From assembly GCA_023384105.1 (NCBI GenBank), contig JAHDXR010000007.1, forward strand, positions 62,001 through 126,000: DNA of 64,000 bases, read 5' to 3'. Below are positions 26,763 through 62,824 of the stretch, in pieces. Source of the stretch: Hyphomonadaceae bacterium. GTDB lineage: Bacteria > Pseudomonadota > Alphaproteobacteria > Caulobacterales > Aquidulcibacteraceae. The notes below the pieces were generated by a model. It was not told where the DNA came from and did no database searches. It was given only the letters and a program-made list of their open reading frames with translations. The translations under genes and the position numbers were made by a program. The first letter of the stretch is position 1. Every line of letters begins with the position of its first letter.

Positions 26763-29700
26763 ATGGCCGATGCGCCTGCCGGTCGCGACTATCGCGAGAC
26801 CGTTTTCCTGCCCGACCTGCCGGGCGATCCTTTTCCGCTGCGCGCGGGCCTGCCGAAGAAGGAGCCCGAGCGGGTCAAGCACTGGGTCGACATCGGCCTC
26901 TACCACCTGCTGCGCAAGGCGGCGGCGGATTGGCCGAAGGTCGTGTTCCACGACGGCCCGCCCTACGCCAACGGACCGATCCATATCGGCCACGCCGAGA
27001 ACAAGATCCTCAAGGACTTCGTCGTCCGCACCAAGCAGATGGCGGGCTACGATTGCGATTACGTGCCGGGCTGGGACTGCCACGGCCTGCCGATCGAGTG
27101 GAAGGTCGAGGAGGATTTCCGCAAGCAGGGCCGCAAGAAGCCTGACGTGCCGGCGGTCGAGTTTCGCAAGGCGTGCCGCGAATATGCCGATAAGTGGATT
27201 CCGCTGCAGCGCGACGAGTTCAAGCGCCTCGGCATCGAAGCCGACTGGGACAATTACTACACGACGATGAGCTTCGACGCCGAAGCGGCGATTGCGGCCG
27301 AGTTCTTGCGCGTGGTGCGCACGGGGCTGGTGTATCGCGGCTCGAAGCCGGTGATGTGGAGCCCGGTGGAACGGACTTCGCTGGCGGAAGCGGAAGTGGA
27401 GTACGCGGAAAAGACGAGCCCGACGATCTGGGTGAAGTTTCCCGCGCTTCATGGACCGCCGGCGTCCTCGCCGGCCGGCGCGGCGCATGCCGGCGAGGCG
27501 CCGGCGGTCCATATTGTGATCTGGACGACGACGCCGTGGACGATCCCGGGCAACCGCGCGATCTCGTATTCGCCGTCGATCAGCTATGGCGTCTTTGAAG
27601 TCGAGAGCATCGAGCACGGCTTGGCGTTCGAGCCGTGGGTGAAGGTCGGCGAGAGACTCGCGATCGCCGACAAGCTCGCCGAGGACGTGATGCGCGCGGC
27701 GAAGGCGGCGTCGTGGAAGCGCGTTGGCGATTTCGATCCGAACGGCGTTGTGTGCGCGCATCCGTTGCGGAATTGGCGACCCTCCTCCCTTGCGGGGGAA
27801 GGCGGGGGAGTCGCTTACGCCTTCCCTGTCCCGCTGCTCGCGGGCGATCACGTCACCGACGATGCGGGCACGGGCTTCGTGCACACGGCGCCGGGGCATG
27901 GCCAGGACGACTTCGAAATCTGGGTGAAGCATTTCGGCCAGGACGGCATCCCGTTCACGGTCGACGAGGACGGCCGTTTCACCAAGGAAGCGCCGGGCTT
28001 TGAAGGGCTCGAAATCCTGCAGCTTGAGGGCAAGAACCTCGGCAAGGACGGGCCGGCGAACAAGGCGGTGATCGATGCGCTGATCGAGGCCGGCGCGCTG
28101 CTGGCGCGCGGGCAGCTGAAGCACCAGTATCCGCACTCGTGGCGCTCGAAGGCGCCGCTGATCTTCCGCAACACGCCGCAATGGTTCATCGCGCTCGACA
28201 AGCCGTATCGCAACGGCAAGACGCTGCGCCAGGTCGCGCTCGAAGAGATCGACCGCGTCGATTGGGGCCAGAAGCGCACCGGCGAGACCAAGGACTACAA
28301 CCGCATCCGCGGCATGATCGAGGATCGCCCCGATTGGCTGGTGTCGCGCCAGCGCGCCTGGGGCGTGCCGCTGCCGATCTTCGTGAAGAAGAGCGACGGC
28401 TCGATTCTGCAGGACGCTGAAGTCGATGCGCGCATCGTCGCCGCGATGAAGCGAGGCGGCGCTGATGTGTGGTGGGCGACGCCAGCGCAGGACTTTCTGG
28501 GCGATAGATACAAGGCTGGTGAGTTCGAGAAGGTCGAGGACATCCTGGATGTCTGGTTCGACTCAGGCTCCACGCATGCGTTCGTGATCGGCAACCCCGA
28601 AGCGCCGACGCGGGCCTCGTTCGCGAACCCGGTCTCGACCATCTATCTCGAAGGCTCGGACCAGCACCGCGGCTGGTTCCATTCCTCGCTGCTGGAAAGC
28701 TGCGCCACGCGCGGGCGCGCGCCCTATGACGAGGTCATCACGCACGGCTTCGCCATGGACGAGGAGGGCAGGAAGATGTCCAAGTCCCTCGGCAATGTGG
28801 TGGAGCCGCAGAAGATCGCGCAGCAGAACGGCGTTGAAATCCTGCGTCTGCTGATCGCGGCGGCGGAGTACGGCGACGATCTGCGTTTGGGCAAAATCAT
28901 GCTCGACCAGTCGAGCGAGATGTACCGCAAGCTGCGCAACACGCTGCGCTATCTGCTGGGAGCGCTGAAGAATTTCGAGGAGAGCGAGCGCGTTCCTTGG
29001 ACCGCCGGCGTCCTCGCCGGCGAGACGCCGGCGATCCAAGAACGGCTGCCTTTGCTGGAGCGCTGGCTGCTGCATCGGCTGTGGGAGCTGGATCGCGCCG
29101 TGCGCGGCGCCTACGGGACCTACCAGTTCCGCATTGCGCTGCAGGCTATCGTCGAGTTCTGCAATGTCGATCTTTCGGCGTTCTATGTCGACGTGCGCAA
29201 GGACGCGCTCTATTGCGACGCGCCGTCCTCGTTCCGCCGCCGCGCCTGCCGCACGGCGCTCGACGAGACGTTCTCGCGGCTGACCGCATGGCTCGCGCCG
29301 ATCCTGCCGTTCACGGCGGAGGAAGCATGGCTGACGCGTTTCCCGGACACCGTCTCGGTGCATCTGCGCACGTTCCCGGAGACGCCCGACAGCTGGCGGG
29401 ACGATTTCGCCGGCGAGGAAATGGCGAGGCTCCGTGAAGCGCGCGCGGTGGTGACGGGGGCGCTCGAAGTGGCGCGGCGCGAGAAGGTGATCGGCGCGGC
29501 GCTGGAAGCGGCGCCGCGCGTGTTCGTCGCCGACGACGGCCTGCGGGCTTCGCTGCAGGCGGTCGATTTCGCCGAACTGTGCATCACCAGCGGCGTGATC
29601 ATCGAGGCGGGCGAAGGCTCGGACGAGGCGTTCCGCCTGCCGGAGACGCCGGGGGTTGCGGTGGCGGTGGAAAAGGCGCCGGGCGTGAAGTGCGCGCGGT

Positions 29701-29801
29701 CGTGGAAGTATTTCGACCCCGCCACCGCCGACCCGCGCTACCCCGACATCACGCCGCGCGACGCGGAAGCGGTGGCTGCCTGGGACGCCGCGCGCAGGTA
29801 G
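26763..29801 (+). CDS. ileS: Isoleucyl-tRNA synthetase with in-frame repeat insertions
   Basis: 1012 residues, longer than the usual roughly 940. HIGH motif at H74 (HIGHAENK), KMSKS at about 671 (KMSKSLGN), and CP1 editing domain with IWTTTPWTIPGNRA. Three low-complexity inserts are encoded by palindromic DNA: residues 230-250 and 337-350 in the editing region, and 745-759 (PWTAGVLAGETPAIQ) near the start of the anticodon domain. At the C-terminus the usual zinc-binding Cys set is mostly lost (KCARSWKYFDP; no second CxxC). ATG 26763 has GGAGA about 9 bases upstream. It charges tRNA-Ile. Confidence 0.95.
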   Translation: MADAPAGRDYRETVFLPDLPGDPFPLRAGLPKKEPERVKHWVDIGLYHLLRKAAADWPKVVFHDGPPYANGPIHIGHAENKILKDFVVRTKQMAGYDCDYVPGWDCHGLPIEWKVEEDFRKQGRKKPDVPAVEFRKACREYADKWIPLQRDEFKRLGIEADWDNYYTTMSFDAEAAIAAEFLRVVRTGLVYRGSKPVMWSPVERTSLAEAEVEYAEKTSPTIWVKFPALHGPPASSPAGAAHAGEAPAVHIVIWTTTPWTIPGNRAISYSPSISYGVFEVESIEHGLAFEPWVKVGERLAIADKLAEDVMRAAKAASWKRVGDFDPNGVVCAHPLRNWRPSSLAGEGGGVAYAFPVPLLAGDHVTDDAGTGFVHTAPGHGQDDFEIWVKHFGQDGIPFTVDEDGRFTKEAPGFEGLEILQLEGKNLGKDGPANKAVIDALIEAGALLARGQLKHQYPHSWRSKAPLIFRNTPQWFIALDKPYRNGKTLRQVALEEIDRVDWGQKRTGETKDYNRIRGMIEDRPDWLVSRQRAWGVPLPIFVKKSDGSILQDAEVDARIVAAMKRGGADVWWATPAQDFLGDRYKAGEFEKVEDILDVWFDSGSTHAFVIGNPEAPTRASFANPVSTIYLEGSDQHRGWFHSSLLESCATRGRAPYDEVITHGFAMDEEGRKMSKSLGNVVEPQKIAQQNGVEILRLLIAAAEYGDDLRLGKIMLDQSSEMYRKLRNTLRYLLGALKNFEESERVPWTAGVLAGETPAIQERLPLLERWLLHRLWELDRAVRGAYGTYQFRIALQAIVEFCNVDLSAFYVDVRKDALYCDAPSSFRRRACRTALDETFSRLTAWLAPILPFTAEEAWLTRFPDTVSVHLRTFPETPDSWRDDFAGEEMARLREARAVVTGALEVARREKVIGAALEAAPRVFVADDGLRASLQAVDFAELCITSGVIIEAGEGSDEAFRLPETPGVAVAVEKAPGVKCARSWKYFDPATADPRYPDITPRDAEAVAAWDAARR
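27451..27512. repeat. Family A palindrome inside ileS (copy 2)
   Basis: ATGGACCGCCGGCG (from 27451) and its reverse complement ending GGCGGTCCAT (27512) frame a 62-base near-perfect palindrome with a CCTCGCCGG core shared with 126-157. It encodes IleS residues 230-250 (HGPPASSPAG to EAPAVH) and sits just before the conserved VIWTTTPWTIPGN editing segment, adding an Ala/Pro-rich loop. Confidence 0.88.
27771..27812. repeat. Second-type small palindrome inside ileS
   Basis: CGACCCTCC and GGGGGAGTCG outer halves with an inner TCCC-TTGCG-GGGGA hairpin. It encodes about NWRPSSLAGEGGGV (residues 337-350), between HPLR and YAFPVPLLAGDHVTDDAGTG, which are adjacent or nearly so in ordinary IleS. CCTCC-type GC hairpins of this kind are usually intergenic. 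Confidence 0.7.
28996..29040. repeat. Family A palindrome inside ileS (copy 3)
   Basis: CTTGGACCGCCGGCGTCCTC and the reverse complement ending GGCGATCCAAG form a 45-base palindrome with the same core as the 27451 copy. It encodes PWTAGVLAGETPAIQ (IleS 745-759) between the catalytic and anticodon-binding parts. Confidence 0.88.
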
Positions 29802-47861: not shown

Positions 47862-47982
47862 CCGCTTCCCGGCCGGATGCCCCGCGAAAGTGGGGCGAAG
47901 AGCCGGGACCTAGGGGATGGCAAGCGCTGTGCGTTCGCCCCTGGGTCTCGGCTCTCCGCTGCGCTCCGGCCGGGAAGCGTGG
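47862..47982. repeat. Palindromic repeat, family C (copy 2)
   Basis: CCGCTTCCCGGCCGG on the left and CCGGCCGGGAAGCG on the right, with inner CCGGGACC and CTGGGTCTCGG halves, closely matching the 2468-2615 element. It fills the gap between the dehydrogenase genes and the convergent metal-hydrolase gene. No gene inside. Confidence 0.82.
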
Positions 47983-61585: not shown

Positions 61586-62182
61586 ATGAAACTCAAGCTG
61601 CTGTGCTCGACGCTGTTGCTGGCGACCGCCGGGCTCGTTGCGCCGGCGCAGGCCAAGGTCGATGAGATCCGCCTCGCCGCCGTCGACAATATCCGCCTCG
61701 ACCACGGCGACATCGTCGAAGGCAAGGAGGAAGGCGCCAATATCGAGATCGACATCGTCTCCAACTCGCCGGACTTCCTGAACCTGATCGGGTCGCCGCG
61801 GCCGTACGTGATGGCCTCGCTGAACACGGACGACGGTGTGTCGTTCGCCGGCGTGGGCGTCGTCTGGCGCTGGGAGTTCGCCGACGGCTGGGCGTTCGAG
61901 CCCGGGTTCGGCTACATCGTCCACGACGGCGAACTGGACAATCCGTACCCATCGCTCTCGCCCGAGGCGGTTGCGTTCGAGCGGGAGAACCAGCTGCTCG
62001 GCTCGCGCGACCTGTTCCGCAGTTCCTTCGCGCTGGAGCGCGAATTCGGCCCCCACCACGCGCTGCAACTCTATTGGGCGCATATGAGCCACGGCCAGAT
62101 CCTCGACACCGGCCGCAATCAGGGGCTGGATTTCGTCGGCCTGCGCTATCTCTACCGGTTCGACGCGGACGCCGCAGATTAA
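61586..62182 (+). CDS. PagL-like lipid A 3-O-deacylase / acyloxyacyl hydrolase family (1)
   Basis: 198 residues. Signal peptide ends LVAPAQAK. An 8-strand beta-barrel is likely, ending YRFDADAAD. The conserved block WAHMSHGQILDTGRNQGLD (about 168-186) resembles the His-Ser catalytic region of PagL. The family removes a 3-O-acyl chain from lipid A in the outer membrane. It is followed 57 bases later by a close paralog with the same blocks (GSRDLFR, SHGQIL, GRNQGLD). Confidence 0.72.
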   Translation: MKLKLLCSTLLLATAGLVAPAQAKVDEIRLAAVDNIRLDHGDIVEGKEEGANIEIDIVSNSPDFLNLIGSPRPYVMASLNTDDGVSFAGVGVVWRWEFADGWAFEPGFGYIVHDGELDNPYPSLSPEAVAFERENQLLGSRDLFRSSFALEREFGPHHALQLYWAHMSHGQILDTGRNQGLDFVGLRYLYRFDADAAD

Positions 62183-62239
62183 CCCGCTTTCATCGGTTCC
62201 CTCCGCGCGCTAGGCTCGACGCGCCTTGGGGGAGAATCG

Positions 62240-62824
62240 ATGCGGGGAGCGGCGGCAGGGCTGGCGGTCTGCGGCGCGGCCATGATGTTGGCGCCGCAAG
62301 CGCGCGCCGGCGTGGACGAGGTCCACGCTGGCGTCATGCAGCACAACATCTGCGTCACCAATTGCAAGAACGCCGACAAGGAAGACGGCCCCAACATCGA
62401 ACTGCAGCTTTCCTTCGACTCGCCCGGCTTCCTGAACTGGGCCGGTTCGCCGCAGCCCTACATCGTGGCCTCGTTCAATACCGGGGGCGACACCAGCTTC
62501 GCCGGTTTCGGCCTCGAATGGCGGTGGAATTTCGCCGAGAACTGGGCGCTGCAGCCGGGCGTCGGCTACGTGGTGCACGACGGCGAACTGGAGAACCCGT
62601 ATCCGGGCGGCGGCCCGGACGGGGTGGCGTTCGCAGCCGAGCACGTCCTGTACGGCTCACGCGATCTGTTCCGCACCTCGCTTGGCCTCACCTACGATGT
62701 CGAGGGGCCGTATGAAGCCCAGCTGCTCTACGAACATCTGAGCCACGGCCAAATTCTCGGCGAGGGCCGCAACCAGGGCCTCGACCAGATCGGCGTCCGG
62801 ATCGGCTACCGGTTCGGCGGCTGA
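62240..62824 (+). CDS. PagL-like lipid A 3-O-deacylase / acyloxyacyl hydrolase family (2)
   Basis: 194 residues. Signal peptide ends APQARAG. Same architecture as the previous gene: ELxNPYP, GSRDLFRTSLGL, YEHLSHGQILGEGRNQGLDQ, ending IGYRFGG. Two Cys near the N-terminus (ICVTNC) are unique to this copy and could form a disulfide. A GGGGGAG SD lies 6 bases before the ATG. The pair is probably a tandem duplication in one unit. Confidence 0.72.
   Translation: MRGAAAGLAVCGAAMMLAPQARAGVDEVHAGVMQHNICVTNCKNADKEDGPNIELQLSFDSPGFLNWAGSPQPYIVASFNTGGDTSFAGFGLEWRWNFAENWALQPGVGYVVHDGELENPYPGGGPDGVAFAAEHVLYGSRDLFRTSLGLTYDVEGPYEAQLLYEHLSHGQILGEGRNQGLDQIGVRIGYRFGG

Follow-up and report, generated by a model that had tools for sequence, protein, structure and literature searches.

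How do several palindromic repeats come to lie within the reading frame of an essential aminoacyl-tRNA synthetase gene, and do they belong to a family of elements that moves? The question is raised by an ileS gene in the window, a term used here for the whole 64,000-nucleotide stretch of DNA that was analysed; the window's genome (G000) is a 3.67 Mb draft in 28 contigs. A first-pass annotation had proposed that an amplified intergenic element entered this essential gene at least twice, with the Rickettsia palindromic elements as the precedent. The relevant features of the window are the following.

26763-29801, + strand: ileS, isoleucyl-tRNA synthetase of 1012 aa, host of the insertions (from translation, Pfam and IleRS alignment)
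27451-27512, + strand: family A palindrome (REPIN-like) at IleS site 1, residues 230-250 (HGPPASSPAGAAHAGEAPAVH); fold z -8.6
27771-27812, + strand: collapsed family B palindrome at IleS site 2, residues 337-350; full two-arm copies in congeners
28996-29040, + strand: family A palindrome at IleS site 3, residues 745-760 (core WTAGVLAGETPAIQ, 746-759); fold z -5.6
126-227, no strand assigned: family A doublet outside ileS, two inverted arms with a 96-nt core at 129-224, read as intergenic; fold z -5.4

Palindromes within ileS

The ileS product matches the Pfam families tRNA-synt_1 (E 6.9e-126) and Anticodon_1 (E 1.2e-26, beginning at residue 766), and its alignment with a solved IleRS (8c9e) covers residues 9-1004, with gaps in all three palindrome stretches. 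The site 1 palindrome occupies the loop preceding the VIWTTTPWTIPGN motif, and that of site 3 precedes the anticodon-binding domain. As had been stated, the frame remains open through the palindromes on translation. The palindromes of sites 1 and 3 had also been read as members of a single family, and this is confirmed; both are strong hairpins, with DNA folds that none of 200 shuffles equalled in stability. The 27771-27812 palindrome, previously described as a third one of another type, folds no better than shuffles (z +0.4) and is not significant on fold alone; it is confirmed by comparison, since four congeners (G014, G009, G027 and G018) carry a full two-arm family B element at site 2, and the window copy accordingly reads as collapsed.

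An AF2 model of IleS built from 40 sequences has a mean pLDDT of 84.6; it was used in place of a single-sequence model, which was discarded (mean pLDDT 35.8). Besides the N-terminus (1-6, 14-22), the segments of at least three residues with pLDDT below 50 are 232-246, 342-349, 598-600 and 750-759, and three of these four are encoded by palindromes (sites 1, 2 and 3 for the first, second and last). Sparse alignment at inserts lowers pLDDT by itself, so that these low values support a loop-like character of the inserts without proving it.

The protein had been described as about 70 residues longer than usual. It is longer, and the figure was overstated: the excess is 29-40 residues over two element-free congeners (matched residues 983 or 972 in G016, 979 in G017), 27 over the median of 985 in 21 more distant sequences (matched ranges rather than true starts), and more than 90 over solved IleRS chains of 917-921 aa, so that any length figure depends on the yardstick. 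Not every palindrome contributes to it. In the congeners printed, site 1 consists of unrelated loops of varying length, and in the sister-branch congener G013 the loop is equally long without a palindrome, from which it follows that the site 1 copy represents no net addition.

Family A across the genome and within other genes

The family A core (CGGCGTCCTCGCCGG, with up to one mismatch) has 162 matches in G000 versus 11 for the reversed pattern, and is thus far commoner in the genome than expected; a 22-nt arm has 165 matches versus a single reversed one. The arms start with GGACCGCC or GGAGCGCC, giving a GGAC/GGAG head, and neither a GTAG nor a CGTC head is present in them. Across 30 genomes of the same genus the 22-nt arm occurs 0 to 201 times per genome, with a match in 29 of the 30 and at most two reversed matches in any one. 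An order-wide sample contains arm matches in 69 of 150 genomes; outside the genus, high counts are confined to one other genus of the family, in which two genomes have 69 and 32 arms, and every other genome in the sample has 11 or fewer.

At least 88 family A elements were delimited in G000, around exact matches to CGGCGYCCTCGCCGG and GCGGGCGYCCTCGCCCGC and some one-mismatch places among the first 100 of the 162 matches listed. Many are doublets of two inverted arms, 90-98 nt long, and the copy previously reported between genes at 126-227 is such a doublet. It is extremely improbable that these sequences are not mobile DNA but GC-rich palindromes formed by chance or loops expanded through local slippage. 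A GC-rich genome, loops that accept changes in length, the shuffle-like fold at site 2 and the moderate enrichment of the family B core pattern in G000 (89 versus 33 reversed) would all suit such an origin, whereas the recurrence of family A in near-identical form at dozens of positions and in genes unrelated to one another, in large excess over the reversed control, would not; for family A, the genome counts already contradict it.

Several further repeats and features were observed. The bases just outside the GGA...TCC ends of family A are mutually complementary, with copy-specific letters; at least four complementary outer bases are found in 17 of 73 elements, where about 0.3 of 73 would be expected if random. 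A different 48-nt repeat with palindromic parts is present at 2470-2517 and 47863-47910 (copies 92% identical), and similar text adjoins a family A element at another locus (L010). Two 107-nt direct repeats, 78% identical and 654 bases apart from start to start, lie at 61844-62604 and are possibly a duplicated gene.

At least nine of the 88 elements are in frame in Pfam-recognised genes: two in ileS, and one each in carB, rsmA, trmD, a 2-oxoacid dehydrogenase E2 gene, gltB, an acyl-CoA synthetase gene and a YhhN gene. This number is a lower bound, as the protein context was read for 15 of the 88. An automatic coding-score test on both flanks yielded eight clear and three possible in-frame elements among the 88, one of the possible calls (C22:60134) having a low coding score. 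The E2 copy lies between the E3-binding and catalytic domains. The gltB copy is near the N-terminus (residues 7-26), so that the gltB start may be misplaced; its coding score is low because the upstream flank is outside the gene, and other copies near gene starts may have been missed in the same way. Weaker in-gene cases are thiC, with one arm, and a class III aminotransferase, with a short core. In-gene family A copies use three reading frames, yielding peptides of the WTAGV, GPPASSP and LDRRRLAGED types.

Two possible marks of in-gene copies were considered and set aside. The nine are shorter (p 0.009), but the YhhN copy is clipped to 28 nt while its peptide is far longer, many single-arm entries are ill delimited, and compact 60-nt elements are common outside genes in a sample from G003. 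Selection for coding capacity is unsupported: an open frame exists in all 64 elements of at least 50 nt outside the nine, and in 63 of 64 shuffled ones, indicating that frame tolerance stems from base composition. In the G003 sample of 20 family A elements, many of them compact at about 60 nt, none is clearly in a gene and one is borderline; the rsmA gene of G003 nonetheless carries a family A element.

Occupied and empty sites among congeners

The comparison with congeners covers ileS, carB, rsmA and trmD. In carB, family A is present in G000, G027 and G029, and 22 of the 25 genomes counted have no insert (G006 and G013 are left out). In trmD it is present in G000 and G020, with a remnant in G012, and the other 25 of 28 loci have none. 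The rsmA gene is more varied, with family A in one frame in G000 and in another in G003, G012 and G019, a truncated family A copy in G014, a B-like insert in G001 and no insert in 18 of the 24 counted (G010, G023 and G024 are left out). Assignments to family B were made by eye, on the basis of DNA and peptide text, and the weakest is that of G001 rsmA.

At ileS site 2, family B occurs in five genomes, those with the four two-arm copies and the window's own, and is absent in 19 of 24. At site 3, family A occurs in three (G000, G027 and G029) and family B in G003, G012, G014, G018 and G019, the G012 and G014 copies being truncated. No such residues are found there in 15 of the 23 genomes of the genus that were counted, and the palindrome-derived residues of site 3 are in this sense absent from relatives. 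The counts for both sites leave out G006, G015 and G022, which are partial or missing, and that for site 3 also leaves out G010, whose ileS (L047) has a long non-palindromic insert at that position, which suggests that site 3 tolerates other additions too. Some cases counted as having none are perhaps decayed (G012 and G024 at ileS site 2, a G029 rsmA remnant, and G026 carB). Neither a target duplication nor an exact empty site was readable, since the flanking codons also differ. Palindrome-type ileS inserts are also found, from peptide text, in other genera of the family, at site 3 in L268 and at sites 2 and 3 in L270 and L272.

Over five sites (carB, trmD, rsmA, and ileS sites 2 and 3), at least 22 state changes are needed on a four-protein tree, which was built from alignment columns with residues in 80% or more of the rows, lacks G008, G011 and G020, and has 8 weak inner branches among 28. 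An older origin, with one ancestral entry per site followed by in-frame deletion in most lineages, is unlikely. Such a history would be possible at ileS site 2, where the HPLR(D/N)WRP flank and B-like inserts recur in G014, G018, G027 and other genera (L270, L272), and it could draw on the weak branches and on copies that look decayed (trmD in G012, carB in G027). A single ancestral insertion could hardly have given rise to the differing family A frames and the two families at rsmA and ileS site 3, and the carB inserts are shared by G000 and a distant pair, G027 and G029.

The same counts bear on two other explanations. If the extra residues had been selected for a function in the enzymes, as adaptors or regulatory loops, sites common to several species and the conserved housekeeping role of the affected enzymes would make sense. 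This is very unlikely, given that the same peptide types appear in unrelated enzymes and in several reading frames, that most counted congeners are without them, and that the open-frame capacity of elements outside the nine is about that of shuffled sequence. An artefact of assembly or gene calling is scarcely credible: most of the genomes are drafts, many of them MAGs, and at some of these genes the G023 and G024 matches are divided between frames, but several separate assemblies, the single-contig G003 among them, have elements at the same sites.

A candidate transposase and known systems

The sole Y1_Tnp gene found in G000 (L061) matches PF01797 at 45.8 bits, above the cut-off. Its ORF is open and contains an HVH motif within MPTHVHVL, and the product is a predicted HUH transposase. 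A family A doublet lies on either side of the gene; that on the left, which lacks one base and so escaped the search pattern, was identified by eye. Among the 30 genomes of the genus, 16 contain a total of 34 Y1_Tnp matches, and the flanks of 30 of these loci were analysed. Inverted family A arms are found on both sides at 10 of the 30 loci, in nine genomes (G000, and nine loci in eight congeners). One further locus has arms in one orientation, three have an arm on one side, and 16 of the 30 have no family A arm nearby.

Arm number is higher in the nine genomes with a flanked Y1_Tnp gene than in the other 21 (one-sided Mann-Whitney p 0.0012, relatedness ignored); the same test with any Y1_Tnp gene is weaker (p 0.026, relatedness again ignored). 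There are exceptions: G018 has a flanked gene yet only 5 arms, and G014 and G024 have 85 and 82 arms without a gene so flanked. The single-contig G003 has 56 family A arms and no Y1_Tnp match. At a separate locus (L111, 1216-1836), two REP arms encode the N- and C-terminal residues of the transposase ORF itself.

According to the available part of one study (PMC2817692), inverted flanking REPs are a constant feature of RAYT genes (RAYT: REP-associated Y1/HUH transposase). The inverted arm pairs, the high copy number, the location mostly outside genes, the Y1/HUH transposase gene between inverted arms and the greater number of arms in genomes with such a gene are all shared between family A and REPIN-RAYT systems. 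Unlike these, family A, known here from its sequence, has a GGAC/GGAG head, and at least nine of the 88 G000 elements are in frame in genes. A GTAG head is described as characteristic of RAYT-linked REPs in the accessible portion of another study (PMC3733652), and because its arms are without that head, family A is named REPIN-like and is not filed as a GTAG REP.

The resemblance to the Rickettsia palindromic elements (RPEs) lies in palindromes that occur both in frame in unrelated housekeeping genes and between genes. The differences are that in-gene copies of family A are mostly shorter than the 105-146 bp given for RPEs in the part of the 2007 review seen (PMC2229807), that several reading frames are used, and that the hosts, known largely from environmental assemblies, are probably free-living. 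RPE-4 and RPE-6 are assigned to the CGTC-class REPs, with a CGTC head and a CCA-type tail, in the portion of PMC3733652 that was available, and that class, including the two Rickettsia elements, is there said to be apparently without a dedicated transposase; family A is without the CGTC head, and it is not filed as an RPE.

REPs inside genes have been reported before. As far as the text available to us goes, Di Nocera et al. 2013 (PMC3733652) describe them in several species, in ORFs of known proteins that include tRNA synthetases, as is the case here. In recB of two Xanthomonas a REP lies at about the same site, and other genes of one functional class are described there as having REPs at different sites, whereas among the congeners compared here a single site holds two families and several frames. 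What distinguishes family A from the Rickettsia elements and from the known intragenic REPs is a candidate transposase beside the same arms, together with a head that is neither CGTC nor GTAG. The shared sites and the link to a transposase are what is new here, as judged against the available part of PMC3733652. A literature search found no report of such palindromic repeats in this genus.

Family A is most probably a REPIN-like non-autonomous element, with a RAYT as its likely mover, and some of its in-gene copies persist in tolerant loops. Each element would consist of two inverted REP arms of about 22-28 nt separated by a variable spacer, with a length that in G000 is often about 96 nt. The RAYT, whose gene lies between the same arms, would mobilise it, presumably through single-strand transposition. 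Most landings would be between genes and some inside coding sequence, where a copy that preserves the frame and lies in a loop, or in a linker between domains, may survive as extra residues, survival being expected only if both frame and fold are kept. Surviving copies would be neutral or nearly so, and may later shrink or decay. The second palindrome family, B, uses some of the same sites, and tolerant loops, as opposed to DNA targeting, would explain why sites are shared. A broader proposal, that RAYT-driven REPINs and a second palindrome family repeatedly enter the same positions of orthologous essential genes, whose loops act as standing landing sites, stands at about even odds of being correct.

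The first-pass proposal, two or more entries of an amplified intergenic element into an essential gene in the manner of Rickettsia, is supported by the genome-wide excess and by the many congeners with an unoccupied site 3, with the qualification already made for site 1. The picture is wider than the one first drawn: other housekeeping genes are affected as well, two families occupy sites in common, and there is a likely transposase. In the part of the 2007 review available (PMC2229807), the means by which small mobile sequences of this kind move was named as a question for future work. In the present case a similar outcome is accompanied by a candidate transposase, by sites that stand empty in congeners, and by positions in ileS and rsmA that several species have in common. 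The mover, the choice of target and the cost to the protein become testable. The case also illustrates one way in which essential enzymes can gain residues from mobile DNA. If the broader proposal is true, the 'palindromes inside proteins' of the Rickettsia type would come with a mobilising enzyme that can be seen, in a host that is probably free-living.
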